Assembly (NCBI GenBank): GCA_023247875.1
Contig: JAHFFQ010000010.1
Location: 1 to 18,664 of the forward strand
DNA length: 18,664 nt
From: Candidatus Omnitrophota bacterium
GTDB lineage: Bacteria > Omnitrophota > Gorgyraeia > Gygaellales > Profunditerraquicolaceae
Direction of reading: 5' to 3'
Position 1 is the stretch's first letter; each line of letters opens with the position of its first letter. Positions 7,409 to 18,664 of this stretch are shown here, in pieces. The notes under the pieces were generated by a model that saw only the letters and a list, made by a program, of their open reading frames with translations, was not told where the DNA came from and did not search any database. Position numbers and translations under genes: made by a program.

Positions 7409-9283
7409 ATGCTGAATTTTAACCTCTTGTTTGACCCGCTTTCCTTGTTTTTCCTTTTTGTTATCTTTATTATTTCCCTGCCGTCAGCCATTTACTCCCT
7501 GGGATATTTTTCCCCGAAGGCAAATCCCTGCCTGTCCGGTAGGCAGGCTCCTGCGGCGGAAAAAGATAAATATTCCCGGGGTAAGCTAACCCTGCTTTGG
7601 TTTCTGTTTGTTGCTTTTGTAGCGTCAATGGCCCTGGTAGTTACTGCGGCTAACCTGCTTATTTTTCTTGCGGCCTGGGAGATCATGTCCCTGATATCCT
7701 ACTTTCTGGTAGTTTTTGAAACAGGCCAGGAAAAATCCATCCAGGCAGGCCTGATCTACATTGTCATGACCCATATCGGCACGGCTTTTTTAATTGCCGC
7801 CTTCCTGCTGATGTATCAACACTGCCATTCTTTTGATATCTTGGTGATAAAGAATGCCTGCCAGGCAATGCCCGCCCAGCTTAAAAACATTATTTTTATT
7901 CTACTGCTGGTCGGTTTTGGGACCAAAGCCGGGATCGTGCCTTTACATATCTGGCTGCCATATGCTCATCCGCAGGCGCCCAGCCATATCTCAAGCCTGA
8001 TGTCAGGGGTGATGATCAAGACCGCCATATACGGGCTGATCCGGTTTGTGATCTTTACTCTCGGGGTAAATTCTTCCTGGTGGGGCATGCTGATCCTGGT
8101 ATTAGCGGTGATCTCCTGCCTGGTGGGGGTGATCTACGCGCTGATGGAGCATGATATTAAAAGGCTGCTTGCCTATCACAGCGTGGAAAATATAGGAATA
8201 ATCCTTTTGGGGGTAGGGCTGTCCATGTTCTTCATCGCCAGGAATATGCCTTATTTAGCCATATTCTCATTGATCGCCGGGCTCTACCATTTGGTAAATC
8301 ACGCCATCTTTAAAGGGCTTTTATTCTTGTGCGCCGGCAGCGTGTACAAAGCCACGGGAACCCGCGATATGGAAAAATTAGGCGGACTGATAAAGAAAAT
8401 GCCGCAGACCGCCTTTTATTTCTTAATCGGCTCAATGGGGATCTCCGCTTTGCCTCCGCTAAACGGCTTTGTGAGTGAATGGCTGACTTTACAGGCATTC
8501 TTTTTGGGGGCTTCAAGCGTAATAGGCGGGGCTAAGCTTTTTTTAGGGATCTGCGCGGGGATGCTGGCTTTAACCGGCGGTTTAGCCGCCGCCTGCTTCG
8601 TCAAGGCATTTGGCATAACCTTTCTGGCAGAGCCCAGGAGCCGGCGCGCCGAAGAGGCGAGGGAGGTTTCTTTCTCCATGAAGGCGGGAATGCTGTTCCT
8701 TTCCTTTCTGACTGTTATTTTTGGTTTGGCGGCAGGGTGGATCGTCGCTTTATTGGCCAAGGTTGCCTCTGCCTCAACCGGTATTGAGATCGGCAGTATG
8801 ATATTTTCTTTGAACATTTTTACGCTAAGCCCGCAGACGGCTAAAGGCGTCTATCTTTCCACCCCTTTACTTGCTTTGGTTTTAATCGTGCTGGGGATGG
8901 CAGGTTTTGGCGTATACATGCTGTTTGGCAGGAGAAAGCCGGTAATTTATAAGACCTGGGATTGCGGTTACTACAAGCTCTCCAGCCGCAACGAATACAC
9001 CGCGACCGCTTTTTCAAAGCCGTTCAGGATTGCATTCAGTTTTTTCCTTATGCCCTACCGCAAGACAGAGAAGATCAGGGGATCATTTTATCACGTCAAA
9101 TCCTTTGTCTATGAGACGCACACCACCCCGGTTTTTAAGAAATATATTTATGCGCCGCTGGTGGCTCTGGTTTTTAAATCCGCCAGGTTCATGAGGCGTA
9201 TTCAACCCGGCAGTATTCACCTGTATCTAGCTTATATTTTTGCGGCGTTATTGTTATTGATCATATTTATGCAAAAGTTCTAA
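7409..9283 (+). CDS. HyfB-like (NuoL-type) proton/cation-translocating membrane subunit
   Basis: The 624-residue protein is an antiporter-like subunit of complex I and group-4 hydrogenases, of HyfB type. Ion-channel residues are present: E91 in AWEIMSLISYF, K173 in GFGTKAGIVPLHIWLPYAHPQAP, K204 in MIKTA, and H298/K302 in HLVNHAIFKG. The C-terminal part shows the TWDCGY...EYTATAFSKPFR segment known from HyfB proteins. It starts the six-gene operon. The frame has a stop (TAA) directly before the ATG, so the start is fixed, yet there is no clear ribosome binding site. The loop between the first two helices carries an extra piece, residues 41-47 CLSGRQA, encoded by a palindromic element at 7527-7547. 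Neighbouring subunits show that this is part of an Ehr-like complex. Confidence 0.92.
   Translation: MLNFNLLFDPLSLFFLFVIFIISLPSAIYSLGYFSPKANPCLSGRQAPAAEKDKYSRGKLTLLWFLFVAFVASMALVVTAANLLIFLAAWEIMSLISYFLVVFETGQEKSIQAGLIYIVMTHIGTAFLIAAFLLMYQHCHSFDILVIKNACQAMPAQLKNIIFILLLVGFGTKAGIVPLHIWLPYAHPQAPSHISSLMSGVMIKTAIYGLIRFVIFTLGVNSSWWGMLILVLAVISCLVGVIYALMEHDIKRLLAYHSVENIGIILLGVGLSMFFIARNMPYLAIFSLIAGLYHLVNHAIFKGLLFLCAGSVYKATGTRDMEKLGGLIKKMPQTAFYFLIGSMGISALPPLNGFVSEWLTLQAFFLGASSVIGGAKLFLGICAGMLALTGGLAAACFVKAFGITFLAEPRSRRAEEAREVSFSMKAGMLFLSFLTVIFGLAAGWIVALLAKVASASTGIEIGSMIFSLNIFTLSPQTAKGVYLSTPLLALVLIVLGMAGFGVYMLFGRRKPVIYKTWDCGYYKLSSRNEYTATAFSKPFRIAFSFFLMPYRKTEKIRGSFYHVKSFVYETHTTPVFKKYIYAPLVALVFKSARFMRRIQPGSIHLYLAYIFAALLLLIIFMQKF
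7527..7547 (+). repeat. Short palindromic element inserted in frame in the HyfB-like gene
   Basis: CCTGCCT (7527-7533) and AGGCAGG (7541-7547) form a perfect 7-bp inverted repeat around the loop GTCCGGT. It is GC-richer than its surroundings and encodes cysteine, proline-flanked and arginine residues in a loop that is short in related proteins. It looks like a dispersed palindromic repeat that has settled in a coding region without breaking the frame. I found no second copy in this window, so its repeat nature needs the rest of the genome. Confidence 0.5.
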
Positions 9284-9284
9284 A

Positions 9285-10205
9285 ATGACAAAAACAGCGT
9301 TAACCTTCTTGCAAATAATTTTATTTATCGCCGTGTCTCCGTTTTTAAGCGGCCTGATCACTAAAATAAAGAATAATGTCAGGATGCGTAAAGGCCAGAG
9401 TATTTGGCAGCCTTATTTTAACCTGCTCAAGCTGTTTTCAAAACAAGAGGTGGTTTCCGGGACAGCTTCCTGGATATTCAGGGCCGCGCCTTTTATAGCG
9501 CTTGCTTCCTGCCTGGCCGCCTCCGCATTAATCCCTGTATTTATTTTCGTAAGCCCCTTGCAGCGCATGGGGGATCTCCTGGCCCTCATATTTATTTTTG
9601 CCTTGGGCCGTTTCTTCATGGCGCTTGCCGCCCTTGACACCGGAAGTTCTTTTGGCGGGATGGGCGCCTCAAGGGAGATGTTCATCTCAAGCCTGGCTGA
9701 GCCCGGGCTGTGCTTAGCCATATTCGCCATATCCCTGCAATTCGGCTCAACCAGCATCTTAGCATTTAGCGCAAGCCACGCCGTATCCATCTCATCCGTA
9801 CTTGCGGCAGCTGCCCTTTTTCTCGTAACGCTCGCCGAGACATCGCGTATCCCCGTTGATAATCAGGAAACGCATCTGGAGTTGACCATGGTCCACGAGG
9901 CAATGCTCCTGGAGTATTCCGGCAGGTCCCTTGCCTTGATAGAGTTGTCTTCCTATATAAAACAAATGATCCTGTTTTTTCTCATCGCGCAGGTAGTTTT
10001 TCCTATCGGCATGCCTGGAGCGGCTTTGGCGCCGATCTCGTTATGGTTTTTGTGGTATTTGGCCAGGATACTCATCATCGCCGTTGTGGTAGCTTTGGTG
10101 GAGGTATCGCTGGCAAAGATGCGGCTCTTTAGGGTCGCGGATTTCCTGGGGTTTGCCTTTGTATTGGGGATCATCGCGGTAGTCTGCGCTATGCTGGGGG
10201 TTTAA
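9285..10205 (+). CDS. HyfC-like (NuoH-type) membrane subunit
   Basis: The 306-residue protein with about eight membrane helices matches the HycD/HyfC/NuoH family. This subunit links the peripheral arm to the membrane arm. Seen are RMRKGQSIWQPYFNLLKLFSK near residues 33-53, GGMGASRE at 124-131, and the conserved cytoplasmic loop AETSRIPVDNQETHLELT at 184-201, continuing to EYSG at 210-213. That loop, rich in acidic residues, is the proposed entry of the coupling path in complex I. The gene starts one base after the HyfB-like stop and ends one base before the next start, so it is in a tight operon. Confidence 0.93.
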   Translation: MTKTALTFLQIILFIAVSPFLSGLITKIKNNVRMRKGQSIWQPYFNLLKLFSKQEVVSGTASWIFRAAPFIALASCLAASALIPVFIFVSPLQRMGDLLALIFIFALGRFFMALAALDTGSSFGGMGASREMFISSLAEPGLCLAIFAISLQFGSTSILAFSASHAVSISSVLAAAALFLVTLAETSRIPVDNQETHLELTMVHEAMLLEYSGRSLALIELSSYIKQMILFFLIAQVVFPIGMPGAALAPISLWFLWYLARILIIAVVVALVEVSLAKMRLFRVADFLGFAFVLGIIAVVCAMLGV

Positions 10206-10206
10206 T

Positions 10207-10839
10207 ATGCGCCAAATTCTATTATTCGGCATCCTGACTTCAACTTATCTTATGTGTATCGCCAAAAGGATGCCCGCTTTGGTGCGTTCTTTCCGGTACC
10301 AGTCTTTTTTTATTTTCCTGATAACCTTAGCCGCCGGATTCAGCGAAAAGCGCATTGATTATTATTTTGTCGCGCTGCTTATCCTGGTTTTGAAGGTTTT
10401 TATAATTCCGGCTTTGCTGAATCTGACGGCAAGAAGAATAAATGTGGATGAGAATCTGGGGCTTTTCGTGAATGCCCAGCTTTCGCTGGTGGCGGCGCTG
10501 GTACTCTCTTATTGCTCATGGGTCTTTTCCAGGGGACTGGGGTTTGGCCAGTACCATAAATTGCTGGCGATGACGGTGGCATTTGCCGTGATCTTTATCG
10601 GAGCATTCCTTATGATATCCCGCATGAAGGCCCTTACCCAGGTAGTGGGCCTTTTGGTAATGGAAAACGGGGTTTTTATTCTCGCCTCATCCGTTTCCGG
10701 AGGCATGCCTTTTTTTGTGGAGATCGCCATATTCCTGGACGTATTTGTGAGCGTGATCATTATGGGACTTTTTGTGTTCAGGATAAATAAGCTTTTCACG
10801 CATATTGATGTGACCAAGCTCTCGCGCCTGAAAGGATAG
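10207..10839 (+). CDS. HyfE-like (NuoK-related) membrane subunit
   Basis: The 210-residue hydrophobic protein has about six to seven membrane helices. Its size and position between the HyfC- and HyfF-like genes fit HyfE, the hydrogenase-4 component with a NuoK-like C-terminal part. The segment VVGLLVMENGVFILASSVSG resembles the NuoK helix that carries a membrane glutamate (here E in MENG), expected to take part in proton transfer. The match is less distinct than for its neighbours, but family and context agree. It overlaps no other gene, and the spacer to the next gene is 5 bases. Confidence 0.88.
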   Translation: MRQILLFGILTSTYLMCIAKRMPALVRSFRYQSFFIFLITLAAGFSEKRIDYYFVALLILVLKVFIIPALLNLTARRINVDENLGLFVNAQLSLVAALVLSYCSWVFSRGLGFGQYHKLLAMTVAFAVIFIGAFLMISRMKALTQVVGLLVMENGVFILASSVSGGMPFFVEIAIFLDVFVSVIIMGLFVFRINKLFTHIDVTKLSRLKG

Positions 10840-10844
10840 CTAAG

Positions 10845-12302
10845 ATGCAAATATTCATTATTCTGGGATTGCCGCTCCTGCTTGCCCCGCTGGGTTATTT
10901 GATCGCCAGGCAGAAGATTATCGGAGTAGTTAACGCCATAGGCTATGCACTAGTGTTGTTGGCATCTATACTGCTCCTGAAGGAGAGGGTTTTATCAGGG
11001 GAGGGGCGTTCATTCCTTGGTTTTATATACTTAGACGGCTTAAGCGCTTTCTTTATCTTGGTTATCTCGGTCGTAGCTTTGGCCTCCAGCCTTTATTCTA
11101 TCGGCTATATCAAAAAGGATATGGAGGCAGGGGTGGTCTCCGGAAGAAAAGCCAAGCTTTATTATCTTTTCTTTAATCTATTTTGTTTCTCCATGTTTTT
11201 TGTCCCCGCGGTTAATAATTTAGGCCTGATGTGGGTTGCTATTGAAATGACTACCCTGATCTCCGCCTTTCTCGTGGGATTTTACAACACCAAGGGTTCG
11301 GTAGAAGCCGCCTGGAAATACATCATTATCTGTTCGGCGGGGATCATCCTGGCGCTTTTGGGCACCATTCTTTTTTCCTCCGCATTTTCAATTTCCGGAT
11401 TGAGCAGGAGCTTAAATTGGTCGGATATGGCAAGTGTTGCGCATATCCTGGATAAGAATATCCTGAAGATCGCTTTTATTTTTATTTTGGTGGGTTATGG
11501 CACCAAGGCAGGGCTTGCCCCGATGCACACCTGGCTGCCTGACGCACATAGCCAGGCCCCGGCGCCGATAAGTGCTTTGCTTTCCGGGGTCTTGTTAGAG
11601 ACCGCTCTCTATGCCATATTAAGGTTCGGCATTATCGTGATCAAGGGCGTGGGTTTCGCTTATTTCGGAAATCTTATGCTCCTGTTGGGATTGGTTTCCC
11701 TGGTGATATCAAGCGCTTTTATCCTGGTGCAGAAAGATTTAAAGCGGCTGCTTGCCTACAGCAGTATTGAGCATATGGGCATAATCGCCATCGGTTTTGG
11801 TTTAGGCACTCCTTTGGCTGTCTGCGGGGCGCTCCTGCATGTCTTTAATCACGCCCTGGCTAAGTCACTTATGTTCTTCGGGGCCGGAGATATCGTCAGC
11901 GCTTACAAAAAGCATAATATGAATGCCATCAGGGGCGTAGTTAAAGCATTGCCCTTTGCGGGGATCATGCTTCTTTTAGGGGTGTTCGCGCTTGGGGGCC
12001 TGCCGCCCTTTTGCATATTCATAAGCGAGATGATGATCATCATTGCCGCTTTCGCCAATGGTTCTTATTTAACGGCAGCTTTAATGCTCCTATTCCTGGC
12101 AGTTATTTTCGGCGCCTTCATTTATCATTTCGGGAAAATGCTCTTTGGCAATCTGCCCAAAGGGATGCTTCCTCCAGGCGAACCGTTAAGTTCTAAACTT
12201 GCGTTTTTATTTTTATTTTTCCCGATTTTAACCTTAGGGATCGGGCTCTTATTTATAAAAAAGGATTTATTATGGATCGCGCAGGGCTTATTTCAGTTAT
12301 AA
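10845..12302 (+). CDS. HyfF-like (NuoL/N-type) proton-translocating membrane subunit
   Basis: The 485-residue protein is the second antiporter-like subunit of the operon. Key residues are E134 in WVAIEMTTLISAF, K221 in GYGTKAGLAPMHTWLPDAHSQAPAP, H336/K340 in VFNHALAKSLMFFGAG, and E252 where the HyfB-like paralogue has a lysine. It ends with a glycine-proline helix GGLPPFCIFISEM and no long C-terminal amphipathic arm. Two such pumps beside one NuoH-like subunit is the Hyf-type layout. An AAAGGA site precedes the ATG. Its last 31 bases overlap the start of the next gene, which suggests coupled translation. Confidence 0.92.
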   Translation: MQIFIILGLPLLLAPLGYLIARQKIIGVVNAIGYALVLLASILLLKERVLSGEGRSFLGFIYLDGLSAFFILVISVVALASSLYSIGYIKKDMEAGVVSGRKAKLYYLFFNLFCFSMFFVPAVNNLGLMWVAIEMTTLISAFLVGFYNTKGSVEAAWKYIIICSAGIILALLGTILFSSAFSISGLSRSLNWSDMASVAHILDKNILKIAFIFILVGYGTKAGLAPMHTWLPDAHSQAPAPISALLSGVLLETALYAILRFGIIVIKGVGFAYFGNLMLLLGLVSLVISSAFILVQKDLKRLLAYSSIEHMGIIAIGFGLGTPLAVCGALLHVFNHALAKSLMFFGAGDIVSAYKKHNMNAIRGVVKALPFAGIMLLLGVFALGGLPPFCIFISEMMIIIAAFANGSYLTAALMLLFLAVIFGAFIYHFGKMLFGNLPKGMLPPGEPLSSKLAFLFLFFPILTLGIGLLFIKKDLLWIAQGLFQL

Positions 12303-13849
12303 AAAGTAAATTGCCGGATTTTAACCCTATTTCTGCCGCGCAGGGATTTCCGGATGAGTTCTCCATTAAGGTAAGCCCGGAGGCCTTCAAGGATACTTGC
12401 CTTGTTTTGCACAAACACCTTGGTTCACCCGTGATGATGCTTTTTGCGCTTGACCAGCGTAAAGAAACGGGCAATTTTGTGATCAATGCCGTGTTCGCGG
12501 ATTTCAGGGAGAGCCGGTGGGTCATTGTGAGTATGGATATCCGGCAGGAAAACCCATGTTTTGAAACGTTGGCAAAAAGCATGCATTCAGCCCTGCTTTT
12601 TGAAAGAGAGATCTGGGAGATGTTCGGTATTGAGCCGAAAGGCAGCCCTGACCTAAGGCGGTTGAATCTGCATGATGAGGTTTGGCCGCGGGGAAATTAT
12701 CCTCTGCGCAAAGATTTTCAGAAAATGGCTGCCGGAAATACGGGTGAATATAATTTTGCCAGGGTGGAGGGGGAAGGGGTATTTGAGGTGCCGGTGGGGC
12801 CCGTGCATGCCGGGATCATCGGCCCGGGGCATTTCCGCTTTAGCGTTGCCGGCGAACCGATCATAAACCTGGAGGCCAGGCTCGGGTTTACTCACCGGGG
12901 GGTGGAGAAACTTTTTGAAAATAAAAGTTATGATCAAGCGGCGTGCCTTTCGGAATGCGTATGTGGCGATGCGGTTTTCAGCCACAGTCTTGCTTTTGCC
13001 AGGGCGATAGAGAAGATCTCTTGCGCCAGGATCCCTCTCCAGGCGGATCTCTTGAGAGGGATATTTTTAGAGCTTGAGCGCATGCATAACCATGTGCATG
13101 ATATCGGCGGTATCGCCATAGATGTGGGTTTTAGTTACCCTCACGCCTACGCCTCGATCATCAAAGAATCCCTCCTGCAGTTGAATGAAAGATTATGCGC
13201 CAGCCGGTATCTTAAAAAGGTTAACCTCCCGGGAGGGGTTTTAACGGATATGGATGATGAGAAAAAAGAACTGCTTCGGGTTTCCCTTAAAAAAATGAAA
13301 CATGATTTTAATGCGCTGGTTAAAATATTATATACCAGCGTCTCTTTTATGGACAGGGTGGACGGAACGGGTGTCTTGAGAAGAAAGACCGCGGAGGATT
13401 TGGGCGTGACTGGACTCGCCGGCCGCGCTTCGGGGATCCCGGAGGATTTAAGAAAATATTTCCCCGGAGTATACAAAGAAGCTAAATTTAAAATAGCGGT
13501 AGAGGGTTCCGGGGATGTCCTGGCGCGCTTGCGCATCAGGATCTCTGAATTCCTTGAGTCCTGCCGTTTGATCGAAGAGTTTAGCGCCATGCTCGTTAAA
13601 GACTCCAGGAGTAAAGTTGATCTTGAATTAAGAGAGGGCAGCGCCTTGGGTTATGCGGAGGGCTGGAGAGGCCCGGTATTGTACTGGGTTAAGACAGGCC
13701 CTGGGGGCCGGCTCCAGAGGTGCAAGATCGTTGACCCCTCTTTCCATAACTGGCAGGGTTTATGCTTTTCCGTGCTGGGGAATATTATCCCGGATTTTCC
13801 TCTTTGCAATAAAAGCTTTGACCTGTCATATTCAGGGAATGATCTCTAA
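12272..13849 (+). CDS. HyfG-like NuoC-NuoD fusion subunit lacking the NiFe ligands
   Basis: The 525-residue protein joins a NuoC-like domain (about 1-150, ending in PLRKDF) to a NuoD/hydrogenase large-subunit domain (about 160-525, with VHAGIIGPGHFRF and LEARLGFTHRGVEKL). In hydrogenases of this type the first metal motif is R-V-C-G-I-C and the second, at the C-terminus, is D-P-C-x-x-C. Here the first reads C229-V-C231-G-D-A234, so one of two cysteines remains. The second reads D488-P-S490-F-H-N493, with both lost. The protein also stops without an obvious maturation-peptide tail. It therefore should not hold a NiFe centre, and is closer in kind to Ehr proteins or complex I NuoD. Its electron acceptor is unknown. 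A good AAAGGA site precedes the ATG, which lies inside the previous gene. Confidence 0.92.
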   Translation: MDRAGLISVIKSKLPDFNPISAAQGFPDEFSIKVSPEAFKDTCLVLHKHLGSPVMMLFALDQRKETGNFVINAVFADFRESRWVIVSMDIRQENPCFETLAKSMHSALLFEREIWEMFGIEPKGSPDLRRLNLHDEVWPRGNYPLRKDFQKMAAGNTGEYNFARVEGEGVFEVPVGPVHAGIIGPGHFRFSVAGEPIINLEARLGFTHRGVEKLFENKSYDQAACLSECVCGDAVFSHSLAFARAIEKISCARIPLQADLLRGIFLELERMHNHVHDIGGIAIDVGFSYPHAYASIIKESLLQLNERLCASRYLKKVNLPGGVLTDMDDEKKELLRVSLKKMKHDFNALVKILYTSVSFMDRVDGTGVLRRKTAEDLGVTGLAGRASGIPEDLRKYFPGVYKEAKFKIAVEGSGDVLARLRIRISEFLESCRLIEEFSAMLVKDSRSKVDLELREGSALGYAEGWRGPVLYWVKTGPGGRLQRCKIVDPSFHNWQGLCFSVLGNIIPDFPLCNKSFDLSYSGNDL

Positions 13850-13852
13850 ATT

Positions 13853-14377
13853 ATGATACATATATTTAAGAACAGGGTATTAAAAGGCGTAGTTACCAGG
13901 CATATTGAAGCGGGATTCTCCGGTGAGATAATATCCGCGGGCGCCGAATTACGCTCGTTGATCCGCAAGAAATTCGGCAGGTCCTTACATATCCGCGAAG
14001 TGGATACAGGTTCCTGCGGGGGCTGCGAATCCGAGATCATTTCAGCCAACAACCCGGTCTATGACCTGCAGAGATTCGGTATAAACTTTGTGGCTTCACC
14101 CCGCCATGCCGACGCGCTTTTAGTCACGGGCCCGCTCTCTAAAAATATGCTTCTTGCCCTCAAAAATACTTACGCCGCCATGCCCGATCCTAAATTCGTG
14201 ATCACTGCCGGGGACTGCGCGCTAAACGGGGGATTATTTAAAGATTCATATTATCTCGCCGGCCCGGTGAAGGATATATTGCCGGTAGCATTGCATATAC
14301 CCGGTTGCCCCCCAAGCCCGGAGGCGATCATAAAAACATTGCTTGCTTTTTTAAGGCAGGGCTCACCCTCCCGTTAA
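13853..14377 (+). CDS. HyfI-like (NuoB-type) [4Fe-4S] subunit
   Basis: The 174-residue protein is the small electron-transfer subunit that sits next to the HyfG-like large subunit. It has the full ligand set for one [4Fe-4S] cluster of the N2/proximal type: C55 and C58 in GSCGGCE, C122 in AGDCA, and C152 in PGCPPSPE. The C-x-x-C spacing is the hydrogenase form, as opposed to the adjacent pair in complex I NuoB. It ends the tight six-gene operon, three bases after the HyfG-like stop. The cluster being intact while the NiFe site is lost suggests that electrons still reach the large subunit. Confidence 0.92.
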   Translation: MIHIFKNRVLKGVVTRHIEAGFSGEIISAGAELRSLIRKKFGRSLHIREVDTGSCGGCESEIISANNPVYDLQRFGINFVASPRHADALLVTGPLSKNMLLALKNTYAAMPDPKFVITAGDCALNGGLFKDSYYLAGPVKDILPVALHIPGCPPSPEAIIKTLLAFLRQGSPSR

Positions 14378-14443: not shown

Positions 14444-14462
14444 AATTTTAAAGGAGGTGCAG

Positions 14463-14627
14463 ATGGCTAAACTTAAGAAAGGGCATAAGCTGCTTTGTAT
14501 TCCTTGCGGAAGAAGGATTGTTATTGACGTCAGCGGCGTATCAGAGACAACCATATGGTGTTGCGGCAGGCCCATGCAAAAAAAGGCAAAGGCAAAGACA
14601 GCAAAGAAAACCGGTAAGAAAAAATAA
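14463..14627 (+). CDS. Small desulforedoxin-like protein with lysine-rich tail
   Basis: The 54-residue protein opens behind a near-perfect AAAGGAGGT site. Residues 8-41 match the desulforedoxin fold (the N-terminal domain of desulfoferrodoxin): C12-I-P-C15, then C33-C34-G-R-P-M. Desulforedoxin itself has the pattern C-x-x-C ... C-C-G-x-x-M, so four cysteines should bind one iron (or zinc) in a rubredoxin-type site. Spacing between the pairs is 17 residues, slightly longer than in the classical protein. The last 14 or so residues are Lys/Ala/Thr-rich, like a histone H1 tail, and could bind nucleic acid, an acidic partner or the membrane. The neighbours are the Ehr-like operon and a ferredoxin-reducing enzyme, so an electron-carrier role is reasonable but unproven. 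Confidence 0.82.
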   Translation: MAKLKKGHKLLCIPCGRRIVIDVSGVSETTIWCCGRPMQKKAKAKTAKKTGKKK

Positions 14628-14666: not shown

Positions 14667-14729
14667 ATGAGCTGCGGATCATGCGGGCCGAAGAAACCGA
14701 AGAAAAAAGCAAAGAAGAAAAAGAAATAA
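14667..14729 (+). CDS. 20-residue CxxC-polylysine peptide
   Basis: An AAAGGAGG site 6-7 bases before ATG 14667 opens a 20-codon frame that begins MSCGSCGPKKPKKK and is then almost all lysine, with 11 Lys in total. It has one C-x-x-C pair (C3, C6). The strong ribosome binding site, its place 39 bases after the desulforedoxin-like gene, and the shared plan of cysteine motif plus basic tail all suggest a real gene. A single C-x-x-C could bind metal as a dimer or be redox active. I know no family for it, and a non-coding leader role is the alternative. Confidence 0.6.
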   Translation: MSCGSCGPKKPKKKAKKKKK

Positions 14730-14771: not shown

Positions 14772-14785
14772 ATTTGGAAAATAAA

Positions 14786-16459
14786 ATGAATGATTTTTCC
14801 ATCCTCATCGGAGGCAAAGCCGGTTTTGGCATAGACAAGTCCGGGGCAGTAATAGGCGGGCTTTTGAATAGGTTAGGTTTAGCCGTCTATATTTACCGCG
14901 ACTATCCCTCCATTATCAGGGGAGGGCACACATTTTCTATCATCCGCGCATCAAAGGAAAGGATAGCTAGCCATAGAAACAAGGCAGATTTTATTCTCGC
15001 CTTGAATCAGGATACCTTTAATCTCCACAAGGATAGATTAAAGGAGAGCTCTGTCATCATTTATGATTCTGATTCCGTTAAATTAGAGGGCCTAAGCGAT
15101 AAGGTCCGATCCATAGGTGTCCCTATTGCTAAGATCATTAAAGAGGAGGGGGCAGGCGAGATAATGCGCAACAGCTGCATTATCGGCGCCTTCGTCAAAG
15201 CAGCGGGGATAAAATGGGAGCTCCTGGAAGATATATTCAGAAAAGAATTTACCAAAGAGATCCAGCTGAATTTAAACTCCGGCCGGCGCGGTTATGACGA
15301 AGCAAAGGAATTGACAAAAATAGAAGCTGTATCGCAGGAAAGCCTTCCTTTAGTTTCCGGCAATCAGGCTGTGGCGCTTGGGCTTGTCAAGGCCGGACTC
15401 AACACATATATCTCCTATCCTATGACCCCTACCTCGCCTATCCTGCATTATCTGGCGGAAATAGCGGATGATTTCGGCTTAAAAGTAATTCATCCGGAAA
15501 GCGAGATCGGGGTGATCCTTATGGCTTTGGGATTCTCTTATATGGGTAAGAAAGTGGCCATGGGAACATCCGGAGGCGGTTTTTGCCTGATGACCGAAGG
15601 ATTAAGCTTCTCGGGGATGAGCGAATTGCCGATCGTGATCGTCATGGGCCAAAGGCCGGGGCCATCTACAGGATTACCAACATATTCCACCCAGACAGAG
15701 CTGCATTTTGTTTTAAGCGCCGGCCAGGGAGAGTTCTGCCGCTTTATCGTTGCCCCTGGCGATACGGAGGAGGCGTATTTCTGGTCAGCGCAGGCTTTGA
15801 ATTTGAGTTGGAAATACCAGATACCCTCGATCATACTTACGGATAAGAACTTAGGGGAAGGGATTTTTAACTTTGATATTAATTCTGTGCCGGATATAAA
15901 AGAGGAAGCCCCTTTGTTATGGGATAGAAAATCACCCTATAAAAGATACCTGAATACGGAAAACGGGGTTTCCCCTTTGGCTTTTGTGCCGGAAAAAGAA
16001 ACGATCATAAAAGTAAATAGTTATGAGCATGATGAATCCGGCATAACTACCGAAGAACCTGTGCTCTCCGCTTTAATGCTGGAGAAACGCCTGCGCAAGG
16101 AAAAGCATTTACAGGAGGAGCTGGAGAAATTCAATACCGTAAAAACTTACGGGAATAAGGATTGCCAGATTGCTCTGCTTTGTTGGGGCTCTAATAAAGG
16201 GGTGTGCGTGGAGGCAGCGCAGGGTTTAGGCCTGAAGGTGATCCAGCCGCTTGTGCTCTCTCCATTCCCGGAAAAACAATTTCAGGAGGCTCTCAAAGGG
16301 GTCAAAAAACTTATCTGCGTTGAAAATAATGCCACAGGCCAGTTGAGCCGTCTGCTCAAGATATCCGGATTTAATGTAAATGAACAGATCCTTAAATATG
16401 ACGGCCGGCCTTTTTCTGTGGATGAGCTGGAGGAGAGAATCAGGGGGATGGTGAAATGA
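14786..16459 (+). CDS. 2-oxoacid:ferredoxin oxidoreductase, fused gamma-alpha subunit
   Basis: The 557-residue protein joins the gamma domain (about 1-180, starting ILIGGKAGFGIDKSG, with RGGHTF at 45-50) to the alpha domain (from about 191, GNQAVALGLVKAGLNTYISYPMTPTSPIL). The latter is the KorA/VorB type. The segment SGGGFCLMTEGLSFSGMSELPIVIVMGQRPGPSTGLPT is typical of this group. With the beta subunit it would oxidise a 2-oxoacid to acyl-CoA and CO2, reducing ferredoxin. The exact 2-oxoacid (2-oxoglutarate, pyruvate or branched-chain) cannot be fixed from sequence alone. I chose ATG 14786. A TTG at 14774 is in frame but overlaps the terminator tail and the only GGA resembling a ribosome site. 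It overlaps the beta gene by 4 bases. Confidence 0.93.
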   Translation: MNDFSILIGGKAGFGIDKSGAVIGGLLNRLGLAVYIYRDYPSIIRGGHTFSIIRASKERIASHRNKADFILALNQDTFNLHKDRLKESSVIIYDSDSVKLEGLSDKVRSIGVPIAKIIKEEGAGEIMRNSCIIGAFVKAAGIKWELLEDIFRKEFTKEIQLNLNSGRRGYDEAKELTKIEAVSQESLPLVSGNQAVALGLVKAGLNTYISYPMTPTSPILHYLAEIADDFGLKVIHPESEIGVILMALGFSYMGKKVAMGTSGGGFCLMTEGLSFSGMSELPIVIVMGQRPGPSTGLPTYSTQTELHFVLSAGQGEFCRFIVAPGDTEEAYFWSAQALNLSWKYQIPSIILTDKNLGEGIFNFDINSVPDIKEEAPLLWDRKSPYKRYLNTENGVSPLAFVPEKETIIKVNSYEHDESGITTEEPVLSALMLEKRLRKEKHLQEELEKFNTVKTYGNKDCQIALLCWGSNKGVCVEAAQGLGLKVIQPLVLSPFPEKQFQEALKGVKKLICVENNATGQLSRLLKISGFNVNEQILKYDGRPFSVDELEERIRGMVK

Positions 16460-17307
16460 GCCAGATAAATCTCGGAACCTGCGCCCCGAATACCTGGTGC
16501 CCGGGCTGCGGAAATTTCGCCATACTCAACGCCGTTAAGGCGGTCCTGGGTGAGTTAAATGCCGAAGGTCTCCCTCTGGAGAATATCGTTCTGGTCTCAG
16601 GCATCGGTTGTCATGCCAAGATCGTGGATTATGTGAACGTGAATAGTTTTTATTCCATACATGGAAGGGCAACCCCCGCTGCCGAAGGGATAAAGCTCGC
16701 TGATCCGAAAGTCAAGGTGATCGTATTTGCCGGGGATGGGGATGCTTACGGGGAAGGCATAGAGCACCTTATTTTTGCCGCCAAGAGGAATATCGATATC
16801 ACGATGATCATCCACAATAACCGGGTATACGGGCTTACCACCGGACAATATACGCCTACTTCTCCTTTGGGTTTTAAAGGCCGCTCTACTCCCGCCGGGA
16901 CCATCGAGCCGCCGCTGAATCCACTTGAAGTCATGCTTGCCAGCGGAGCAACTTTTCTTGGCCGGGGCACATCCCACGGCATAGATCTGCTTAAGAAGCT
17001 CTTTAAGGAAGCGATCAAGCACAAGGGTTTTTCCCTGGTTGATGTGCTGCAGGTTTGTGTTACTTATTACAATATGTATGAATATTATGATAAAAGAGTT
17101 TATGGATTAAAAGACCATAATCCTCAGGATTATGTCCAGGCTTTGAGTAAAATACGGGAATGGGATTATAATAGCGATTCGCCTATTGCCTTGGGCGCCT
17201 TCTATAAAAAGGAGGCTCCCAGCTTCGAAGAAAAGTTTTCGGAGCCAGGTACTCCGGCGCAGGATAGGGATACAAAAATAAATGATTTTCTGAAAGGTAA
17301 AATATGA
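16456..17307 (+). CDS. 2-oxoacid:ferredoxin oxidoreductase, beta subunit (TPP-binding)
   Basis: The 283-residue protein carries the thiamine diphosphate motif GDGDAYGEGIEHLIFAAKRN from residue 93 and HNNRVYGLTTGQ from 120. Cysteines C15 and C18 (WCPGCG), C52 (GIGCHAK) and C201 (LQVCVTYYN) match the four ligands of the single [4Fe-4S] cluster in this family. HGRATPAAEGIK is also characteristic. It pairs with the gamma-alpha subunit through an ATGA overlap, so the enzyme is the two-gene type without a separate ferredoxin (delta) subunit. Its TPP need links it loosely to thi4 at the other end of the window. The next gene again overlaps by ATGA. Confidence 0.95.
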   Translation: MSQINLGTCAPNTWCPGCGNFAILNAVKAVLGELNAEGLPLENIVLVSGIGCHAKIVDYVNVNSFYSIHGRATPAAEGIKLADPKVKVIVFAGDGDAYGEGIEHLIFAAKRNIDITMIIHNNRVYGLTTGQYTPTSPLGFKGRSTPAGTIEPPLNPLEVMLASGATFLGRGTSHGIDLLKKLFKEAIKHKGFSLVDVLQVCVTYYNMYEYYDKRVYGLKDHNPQDYVQALSKIREWDYNSDSPIALGAFYKKEAPSFEEKFSEPGTPAQDRDTKINDFLKGKI

Positions 17308-18149
17308 GCGCAAAAATAACTTTTAGAGGCACTCCCCTGACTTTAGCGGGGAGGGTTTTAAAGACTGGGGTGATTGCGCCGGATTTTAAAGTGGTTTCCC
17401 AGGAGCTAAAGGAGGTAAGCTTGTGTGATTTCAAGGGGAGGATAAAAATCCTTACCTCTTTCCCCTCTTTGGATACCCCGGTATGCGATCTTCAGGTGAA
17501 AGAATTCAACAAAAGGGCAACAGGGCTATCCGGGGAGGTAGTCATCCTGGGGATAAGCAAAGATCTCCCTTTTGCCCAGAAGAGATTCTGCGAAACCTTT
17601 GAGATAAAAAATGTAAAGGTCCTCTCCGACTATAAGAGCTCATCCTTCGGGATCAATTACGGTCTTTTGATCAAAGAATTGAATCTCTTGGCCAGGTCTG
17701 TCCTGATCGTAGATAAGAATGATACGCTGAGGTATATCCAGATAACAGGGGAGTTGACTGATCCCGTGGATTACGAGGATGCCTTAAAAAACCTGGCAGG
17801 GTTACTGAATAACCCGCCATTGCCGGTAAAGGAGGAGCTTCCCTCTAAGTGTAAGCCTTGCGAAGTGGGGACAGGAGCTTTGCCAAAAGAGCAGATCGGG
17901 AAGATGCTGGATAAATGCCCCGGCTGGGAGTTGATCGAAGGCAGGAAGCTGGCAAGGGAATTCAAGTTCAATGATTTTAGCGATGCCAAGTATTTTTTAG
18001 ACATTATCTGCGTTATCGCCGAAGAGCAGGGGCATCATCCTGCTTTAGCCTTAACCTATAATAAGTTAAAGGTTTCCCTTACGACGCATGCCTCCGGAGG
18101 CCTTACGGAGAATGATTTTATCATGGCTAAGATAATCAATGAACTTTAG
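17304..18149 (+). CDS. Fusion: Tpx-type thiol peroxidase + pterin-4a-carbinolamine dehydratase
   Basis: Residues 1-168 form a complete Tpx (atypical 2-Cys peroxiredoxin) domain, with peroxidatic C61 in PSLDTPVC and resolving C96 in DLPFAQKRFC, that reduces peroxides using thioredoxin. Residues about 183-281 form a complete pterin-4a-carbinolamine dehydratase domain. E240-x3-H244-H245-P246, Y252, H262 and D271 fit the family pattern exactly. It dehydrates 4a-hydroxytetrahydropterin, but no aromatic amino acid hydroxylase is seen here. A proline-rich linker at 170-182 joins the two, and C183-K-P-C186 opens the second domain. One frame and no internal start with a good ribosome site argue for a true fusion. 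It overlaps the beta subunit gene by ATGA, so it is translated with the oxygen-sensitive oxidoreductase. Confidence 0.9.
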   Translation: MSAKITFRGTPLTLAGRVLKTGVIAPDFKVVSQELKEVSLCDFKGRIKILTSFPSLDTPVCDLQVKEFNKRATGLSGEVVILGISKDLPFAQKRFCETFEIKNVKVLSDYKSSSFGINYGLLIKELNLLARSVLIVDKNDTLRYIQITGELTDPVDYEDALKNLAGLLNNPPLPVKEELPSKCKPCEVGTGALPKEQIGKMLDKCPGWELIEGRKLAREFKFNDFSDAKYFLDIICVIAEEQGHHPALALTYNKLKVSLTTHASGGLTENDFIMAKIINEL

Positions 18150-18167: not shown

Positions 18168-18664
18168 TTGAAATCCATCAAAAGCCGGTTAATCCTCTTT
18201 TTGGTTTGTTTTGTTCTCTTTCTGTCGATCAAAGACAGGGATGCGGCATTCCTGGTTTCTGCGCTGGCTGCTGTTATTTCGGCTTCAGCGCTGGAGTCAG
18301 CCATCCTGTTTCTTAAAACAAAATCCTTACGGGTGACCGAAAGCTCCATTATCACGGGCTTGATCGTAGGTTTTGTGCTTTCAGGGGACCAGCCGTTATG
18401 GGTATTCGCATCAGCTTCCGCCTTAGCCATCCTTTCCAAGTATTTAATACGCTTCCGGAAGAGGCATATCTTTAATCCCGCGGCCTTCGGTATATTCCTT
18501 TCCCTGGTTATTTTCGGCGCTTATACCCAGTGGAGAGGGACTTATATCTGGTATATACTCCTGCCTTTTGGGATTTATTTCGCCAGGAGTTGCGTAAAGA
18601 TGGAGATACTGGCCGGCTATGCTCTTGTTTCCCTGGGGTTGTTTGGGATCCAGGCAATACTCCA
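18168..18664 (+). CDS. RnfD/NqrB-like membrane protein (5' part only)
   Basis: The frame runs off the right edge after about 165 residues. It has at least five hydrophobic segments. The segments SSIITGLIVGFVLSGDQ and RKRHIFNPAAFGIF match the NQR2/RnfD family, whose members are membrane subunits of ion-pumping flavin complexes (Rnf, Nqr). The covalent FMN attachment motif of that family would lie beyond the window, so it is not known whether this one carries flavin. No ATG is available in frame after the TAG at 18147. TTG 18168 is the only plausible start and its ribosome site is weak, so the start is uncertain. It follows the peroxidase fusion by 18 bases and probably belongs to the same operon. 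Confidence 0.75.
   Translation, partial: MKSIKSRLILFLVCFVLFLSIKDRDAAFLVSALAAVISASALESAILFLKTKSLRVTESSIITGLIVGFVLSGDQPLWVFASASALAILSKYLIRFRKRHIFNPAAFGIFLSLVIFGAYTQWRGTYIWYILLPFGIYFARSCVKMEILAGYALVSLGLFGIQAIL

Follow-up and report, generated by a model that had tools for sequence, protein, structure and literature searches.

The window analysed here, i.e. the whole stretch of 18,664 nucleotides of contig JAHFFQ010000010.1 (GCA_023247875.1), belongs to a bacterium of the uncultured phylum Omnitrophota (Candidatus Omnitrophota) whose assembly comprises 1.38 Mb in 177 contigs and is 90% complete. It carries six genes in a row on the forward strand, ehrABCDLS (7409-14377), which almost certainly encode an energy-converting hydrogenase-related (Ehr) complex of the complex I / group 4 hydrogenase superfamily, in a minimal form (Table 1). 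The antiporter-like, NuoH-like and HyfE-like membrane parts of such a complex are all found. EhrA scores 626 bits against the NCBIfam model of hydrogenase 4 subunit B, under the cut-off of 667, and the large subunit EhrL scores 123 bits against PF00346, for which the cut-off is 24; by the coordinates, the start of ehrL overlaps the end of ehrD. EhrL is the main subject of this work: its [NiFe] site seems to have given way to another pocket that is itself well preserved, and the complex therefore resembles one of a known kind rather than a broken hydrogenase.

Table 1. Genes of the ehr unit, segments of EhrL and the adjoining oxidoreductase, with their positions in the window (aa, amino acids; E, expectation value).
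Feature	Position	Strand	Evidence
EhrA, HyfB/NuoL-M-like antiporter subunit, 624 aa	7409..9283	+	PF00361 E 1.8e-55
EhrB, HyfC/NuoH-like membrane anchor	9285..10205	+	PF00146 E 6.5e-35; aligned with NuoH, HyfC, HycD
EhrC, HyfE-like membrane subunit	10207..10839	+	NCBIfam hydrogenase 4 membrane subunit E 5.6e-19, 68.9 bits (under the 136 cut-off)
EhrD, HyfF-like antiporter subunit	10845..12302	+	PF00361 E 9.4e-51
EhrL, large subunit, NuoC-like and NuoD-like domains, 525 aa	12272..13849	+	
EhrL 175-191, beta1-beta2 loop; I183 at the Nqo4 H38 place, G184 at the MbhL E21-type Glu place	12794..12844	+	alignment
EhrL 229-238, C-V-C-G-D-A-V-F-S-H, counterpart of R-x-C-G-x-C-x3-H	12956..12985	+	alignment
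EhrL D488-P-S-F-H-N493, Ehr family motif	13733..13750	+	alignment
EhrL D517-L-S519-Y-S-G522, counterpart of second CxxC (D-P-C-Y-S-C)	13820..13837	+	alignment, model consistent
EhrS, NuoB/HyfI-like small subunit, 174 aa	13853..14377	+	PF01058 E 1e-29
2-oxoacid:ferredoxin oxidoreductase, alpha 14774-16459, beta 16456-17307; neighbour outside the conserved unit	14774..17307	+	

A search of genome contigs matched 105 stretches; relatives of EhrL are encoded in 88, and the best 80 of these were retained. The nearest come from records titled Omnitrophota or Omnitrophica and are 59-73% identical over the best segment of full-length matches. Since the open reading frame (ORF) is intact and relatives occur in 88 of the 105 stretches, chance or a frame error was ruled out as the source of EhrL. 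Residue counts were made on 91 aligned large subunits, 32 non-duplicate ones from the window's own group, called the near clade below, and 59 other Ehr-type ones. At each position 90 rows are informative, 31 of them from the near clade with the window included, one fragment being missing each time.

EhrL was described in the initial annotation as a hydrogenase-like large subunit that has lost three of four NiFe cysteines, with the first metal motif at C231-A234 and the second at D488. The quoted residues C225, C229, C231, G232, D233, A234, H238 and D488-PSFHN493 are all present as numbered in the 525-residue ORF. The first motif was examined in two alignments, one by MAFFT with HyfG, HycE and NuoCD and one by profile against HycE from PDB entry 7z0s. 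C231 and A234 do stand at the place of the first CxxC pair, where E228-C-V-C231-G-D-A234-V-F-S-H238 faces D-R-V-C-G-I-C-G-F-A-H, and in both alignments C229 occupies the position of the hydrogenase Arg and H238 matches the conserved His. The second motif had been misplaced: D488-PSFHN faces A-A-T-Y-A-N-W of HyfG and T-P-S-F-A-H-L of NuoD, residues that are not ligands. By sequence and profile alignments the true place lies near the end of the protein, where S-F-D517-L-S519-Y-S-G522-N-D faces S-L-D-P-C-Y-S-C-T-D. A cysteine-bearing metal motif elsewhere in EhrL was thereby ruled out, since the place is indeed elsewhere and holds S519 and G522. The count of three missing cysteines (A234, S519, G522) stands, and the word 'lost' misleads, because the absence of ligands runs through the whole Ehr family, the second motif was misplaced and position 231 varies between Ser, Cys and Ala.

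An AlphaFold model of EhrL, built from a 30-row alignment, has a predicted local distance difference test score (pLDDT) of 88.1 and a predicted template modelling score (pTM) of 0.91. It superposes on the HycE chain 7z0s_E over 517 residues at 2.0 Å, and residue 523 of the model pairs with residue 535 of the chain; the second cysteine pair of HycE is 531 and 534, which agrees with this pairing if 7z0s_E is numbered natively. The profile is firmer evidence for the second motif than the model, in which the last five residues and residues 177-185 are of low confidence. In the fold search made with the model, a family missing from the list is not thereby ruled out. In group 4 [NiFe] hydrogenases the C-terminal extension after the second CxxC pair is cut by a maturation protease. 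EhrL stops three residues past G522, where HyfG and HycE continue for more than 30 residues; it has neither the two CxxC pairs nor the C-terminal extension of the large subunits of E. coli formate hydrogenlyase and hydrogenase 4. The window's unit is also without a HycF/HyfH-type ferredoxin.

Ser at 519 and Gly at 522 are found in 90/90 informative rows, and N513-K514-S515 is equally invariant; position 234 holds Ser, Ala, Thr, Asn or His, with Cys in none of the rows (0/90). At position 231 the near clade has Ser in 23 rows, Cys in 6/31 (the window, L024, L109, L114, L115, L117) and Ala in 2, and the 59 other Ehr-type rows have Ala (51), Ser (7) or Gly (1) and no Cys. From these distributions C231 of the window is most simply read as a Ser-to-Cys change rather than as a conserved remnant ligand. 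At position 229, 22/31 near-clade rows have Cys and 2 have Ser; the other 7 have Arg, as hydrogenases do.

That the protein is of the Ehr class, and possibly a new branch of it, had been proposed initially, and the tree agrees with both. In a tree of 61 rows, all 40 Ehr rows lie on one side of a branch with 100/100 support, EhrL of the window together with the Geobacter-type large subunits. The 15 near-clade rows form a group of their own (100/97), the Geobacter-type rows adjoin it (97/86) and two Acididesulfobacter-type rows lie outside; the root is not fixed by this tree, for which the program gave a long-branch warning. The tree took 15 of the 32 near-clade and 25 of the 59 other rows and omitted L098 (a fragment), L079 (truncated) and L103 (removed by the domain-cut filter). 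The near clade takes in records titled Elusimicrobia (L022) and Margulisiibacteriota (L023). The Ehr identity of the Geobacter, Elusimicrobia and other Ehr-type loci was inferred from gene order and the published Geobacter subunit names (PMC7894505), the genes GSU0739-0745 themselves not being among the rows. Geobacteraceae and other Ehr have the same subunit types A, B, C, D, L and S and are likewise devoid of both CxxC pairs, and the motifs DPSFHNW and NKSF/L-x-LSY are common to the window and the other Ehr, to whose compared rows EhrL of the window is 32-39% identical.

Several marks set the near clade apart. Position 184, which is the place of MbhL E21 in the profile alignment, is Glu in 59/59 other Ehr rows, and in the near clade it is Gly (28 of 31), Glu (2) or Ala (1); E21 of MbhL is reported as key in the membrane-bound hydrogenase, MBH (PMC7684303). 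C484 is found in 30/31 near-clade rows and in 1/59 of the others. EhrS of the window has one [4Fe-4S] ligand set, C55-x2-C58, C122 and C152, as had been claimed for the NuoB-like partner, and no ferredoxin domain. The near-clade EhrS proteins have 168-196 residues, and none of the 21 listed has the ferredoxin cysteine set. They are without the N-terminal extension of 12 other EhrS forms, six of which carry two full four-cysteine sets there and six incomplete ones; three Acididesulfobacter-type EhrS (179 residues) also have no extension. EhrA of the window and of the four near-clade relatives compared misses the first 60-80 residues of HyfB and other EhrA. Geobacter-type Ehr has two EhrA in several loci, and the window has one. 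EhrL of the window belongs to this supported branch of Omnitrophota, some Elusimicrobia and Margulisbacteria, which is mostly without the MBH-type proton glutamate, the EhrS ferredoxin domain and the EhrA N-terminus. EhrA of the window also has a 17-residue insert around NPCLSGRQAPAAEK, present in L115 as well.

Selection was estimated for the near clade. The ratio of nonsynonymous to synonymous rates (dN/dS) was 0.09-0.17 by two methods in the eight closest near-clade EhrL pairs. The mean entropy was 0.20 bits for residues 175-191, 0.75 for 463-470, 0.56 for 484-496 and 0.39 for 506-525; segment 226-240, with 1.42 bits, is only slightly under the 1.74 bits of the rest of the NuoD-like domain. 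The five pocket segments were picked with the alignment in view. Because of this purifying selection and the good conservation of most pocket loops we do not regard EhrL as degenerate. In the membrane subunits, EhrA has E91, K173, K204 and E357 and EhrD has E134, K221 and E395 at the pump positions of NuoM. The pump residues are mostly kept; for the putative coupling of electron transfer to ion transport, residue conservation is what was observed.

Only ehrABCDLS recur in the 32 non-duplicate near-clade loci, any other family being present in at most 6; families were built from ORFs of at least 60 amino acids, and several loci are cut by contig ends. Among families of at least three loci, judged by their first residues, no hydrogenase maturation or formate genes were seen in the unit, and the ehr cluster of the window holds no NuoE/F/G/I-like gene. 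HyfA/HyfH-like proteins were found in two of 21 near-clade loci, L014 (4 kb off) and L008 (6.5 kb off). In L008 (9001-19472) about 6.5 kb of one contig separate the Ehr unit from another cluster, of hydrogenase type, with HyfA-like, HyfC-like and small-subunit-like genes; the large subunit of that cluster is beyond the stretch examined.

Partners were sought in 58 related genomes, whose assemblies are 64-96% complete and of which 15 have the near-type Ehr; in the window's genus it occurs in 13/27. Profile matches to group 4 [NiFe] hydrogenases are found in 11/15 Ehr genomes, and in the genus in 10/13 with Ehr and 1/14 without (Fisher 0.0003), or 7/8 and 1/10 at completeness of at least 90% (0.003). 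Ten matches were read; all have the first CxxC pair, eight have both and two are contig-end fragments. Those of G021, G029, G031 and G034 were counted by profile alone. The link to Ehr is only suggestive, because an independent-pairs test in the genus on the pyrG tree gave 6 against 1 (p 0.125) and because outside the genus such matches occur without Ehr in 5/8 further family members. [FeFe] hydrogenase shows no association (9/13 with Ehr, 7/14 without). In the 90%-complete genome of the window we found no second HyfG-like gene, which with the cysteines would have spoken against the earlier view, nor any group 4-type profile match. What this genome does encode, on C124, is a [NiFe] hydrogenase of ShyA/HydA-like (group 3) type that retains both CxxC pairs; its NCBIfam scores are under the cut-off. 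Beside it (G000:C124, loci L001 and L002; L002:2623-3654) HypC and a HydE-like radical SAM protein are joined in a single ORF; TIGR03956 matches it with 203 bits, under the cut-off, and no PF02906 [FeFe] hydrogenase domain was found in the same genome.

On the established gene content, predicted EhrL fold, missing [NiFe] ligand pairs, single [4Fe-4S] set, antiporter charges and pocket conservation we base the following proposal, to which as a whole we give an even chance: the complex would pump ions with electrons delivered by a soluble one-electron carrier. The carrier, most likely ferredoxin, would dock on EhrS where relatives hold their own ferredoxin subunit, and electrons would cross the single [4Fe-4S] cluster of EhrS and reduce a small oxidised substrate bound in the rebuilt pocket of EhrL (the H179/H187 loop, E228, D233, R466, D488, N493, C512-N-K514-S and S519). 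The loop 175-191 and EhrB would then relay the energy, and ions would be driven through EhrA and EhrD. The substrate of EhrL is not H2 and is probably not formate; our leading guess is a hydrophobic acceptor, e.g. a sulfur chain or an unusual quinone.

Several observations weigh against this proposal. The donor and the acceptor, like the direction and the coupling of the reaction, are inferred, and a NuoI-like subunit may be encoded elsewhere in the genome. A ferredoxin pump may be redundant, because Rnf, which can oxidise ferredoxin, is widespread: RnfC is over the cut-off in 51/58 genomes and in 11/15 Ehr genomes. In the genus the figures are 9/13 with Ehr and 14/14 without (p 0.04), or 6/8 and 10/10 at completeness of at least 90% (p 0.18), a shortfall which we read as assembly loss because three of the four genomes missing it hold RnfC pieces under the cut-off. 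Within the pocket, D233 is Glu or Asn in 3/31 near-clade rows and H238 is Tyr in 7/31. E252 of EhrD, at NuoM position 265, is Glu where lysine is expected (HyfF has Asn). Finally, the 2-oxoacid:ferredoxin oxidoreductase proves nothing as a neighbour, because it adjoins Ehr in the window only and is not among the families of at least three near-clade loci; L018 has weakly similar oxidoreductase genes (24-26%) 9 kb before EhrL.

Respiratory complex I (NuoC/NuoD/NuoB) shares with the complex the EhrL fold and the antiporter and NuoH-like subunits. EhrL might instead act in the manner of NuoD and reduce quinone in its pocket, which we think rather unlikely. H38 and Y87, the quinone headgroup residues of Nqo4 (PMC7684303), are Ile183 and Gly232 in 90/90 rows, and the C-x2-C of EhrS replaces the tandem CC of NuoB. 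PF02621 of the futalosine pathway was found in none of the 58 genomes, and hence in none of the 15 with Ehr, and MenD is above the cut-off in 3/58, none with Ehr; many weaker MenD matches are probably acetolactate synthases. The UbiA family is no commoner with Ehr (8/13, and 12/14 without, in the genus) and 6 of the 15 Ehr genomes, that of the window among them, have no member of it. The sulfane-sulfur (polysulfide) reductase MBS of Pyrococcus furiosus, where reduction is at the proximal cluster, offers another model, since it is a studied group 4 relative that is active without NiFe and without equivalents of H38, Y87 and E21 (PMC7684303); the near clade likewise has neither H38 nor Y87, and no E21 in 29/31 rows. 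A reaction of this type is unlikely in our view. As reported in the same source, the MBS cluster misses its fourth ligand through a Cys loop three residues shorter, MbsL retains two of the four NiFe cysteines, and MBS includes the ferredoxin subunit MbsN and membrane modules of the Mrp type. EhrS keeps the full four-cysteine spacing: its V-D-T-G-S-C-x2-C aligns without gaps to HycG/HyfI, the MBS sequence not being among the aligned rows. Most Ehr rows have none of the four cysteines, and no sulfur-enzyme lookalikes were seen among families of at least three loci, judged by first residues without a profile scan. Both routes keep their share of probability because an acceptor need not use identical residues.

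A formate dehydrogenase with molybdenum or tungsten has been proposed as the electron source of an Ehr complex in Riflemargulisbacteria and Saganbacteria (PMC6349859), and in Geobacter sulfurreducens the abundance of Ehr is reported to be higher on formate than under conditions that contain hydrogen (PMC7894505). For the near clade this donor is hardly credible, as PF00384 (molybdopterin oxidoreductase) has no match in 14/15 Ehr genomes, nor in any of the 27 genus members. Relaxed selection on a degenerate hydrogenase is an idea raised in passing for Geobacter Ehr (PMC13194489). Here it would fit the missing metal ligands and the patchy presence of Ehr in the genus, with 12 changes on the best single-gene pyrG tree (34 labelled rows; G009, which has no pyrG, is omitted). 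It is very improbable given the low dN/dS, the well conserved pocket segments and a unit retained in records of several phyla.

Further reading frames of the window lie downstream of ehrS. A 56-residue desulforedoxin-like ORF (14457-14627; PF06397 E 0.019, under the cut-off) stands between ehrS and the 2-oxoacid oxidoreductase; L014 and its duplicate L111 have an ORF 37% similar to it 2 kb ahead of ehrA, and none was found by motif in other loci. The same gap holds a 20-residue ORF (14667-14729) with MSCGSCG and a lysine tail, seen here alone. One ORF at 17304-18149 is a thiol peroxidase fused to a pterin-4a-carbinolamine dehydratase domain, and an RnfD/NqrB-like membrane protein (18168-18662; PF03116 E 9.9e-9) continues past the end of the window.

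Ehr have been described as group 4-like complexes without NiFe-binding residues (PMC6349859, PMC10284858, PMC12342949, PMC7304191), with a separate subclade in bacteria of the candidate phyla radiation (PMC7304191). A link of Geobacter Ehr to H2 from formate is suggested in PMC7894505, Ehr is named among hydrogenases raised in coculture (PMC8691401), and Geobacter Ehr has been termed nonfunctional (PMC13194489). For the near clade, the only group with dN/dS values here, the substitution pattern argues against such a label. Among the matches listed, no description of an Omnitrophota Ehr was seen in the open literature at the level of titles and abstracts. The ligand loss of Ehr was thus known before; new within the literature searched are the branch with its marks, the corrected place of the second motif, and the exclusion tests.

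Many phyla have Ehr complexes, the function of which is given as unknown (PMC10284858, PMC12342949). For itself, the near clade weakens two ideas, a formate dehydrogenase partner and menaquinone. As the six-gene form is reduced and a donor must meet its single cluster, the question becomes testable on the EhrL-EhrS pair. Surveys of complex I by PF00346 alone could count EhrL-type genes as complex I; PF00346 is named where complex I is reported in an Omnitrophota order (PMC10066038). Tentatively, and at clearly less than even chances, the branch may be a single-cluster redox ion pump that has neither a ferredoxin of its own nor a [NiFe] site, that is without the complex I quinone residues and mostly without the MBH-type proton glutamate, and whose vacated pocket carries out a chemistry of neither H2, formate nor ordinary quinone. 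If this is true, the complex I superfamily would have a further kind of acceptor beside protons, quinone and polysulfide, on the smallest frame among those compared.
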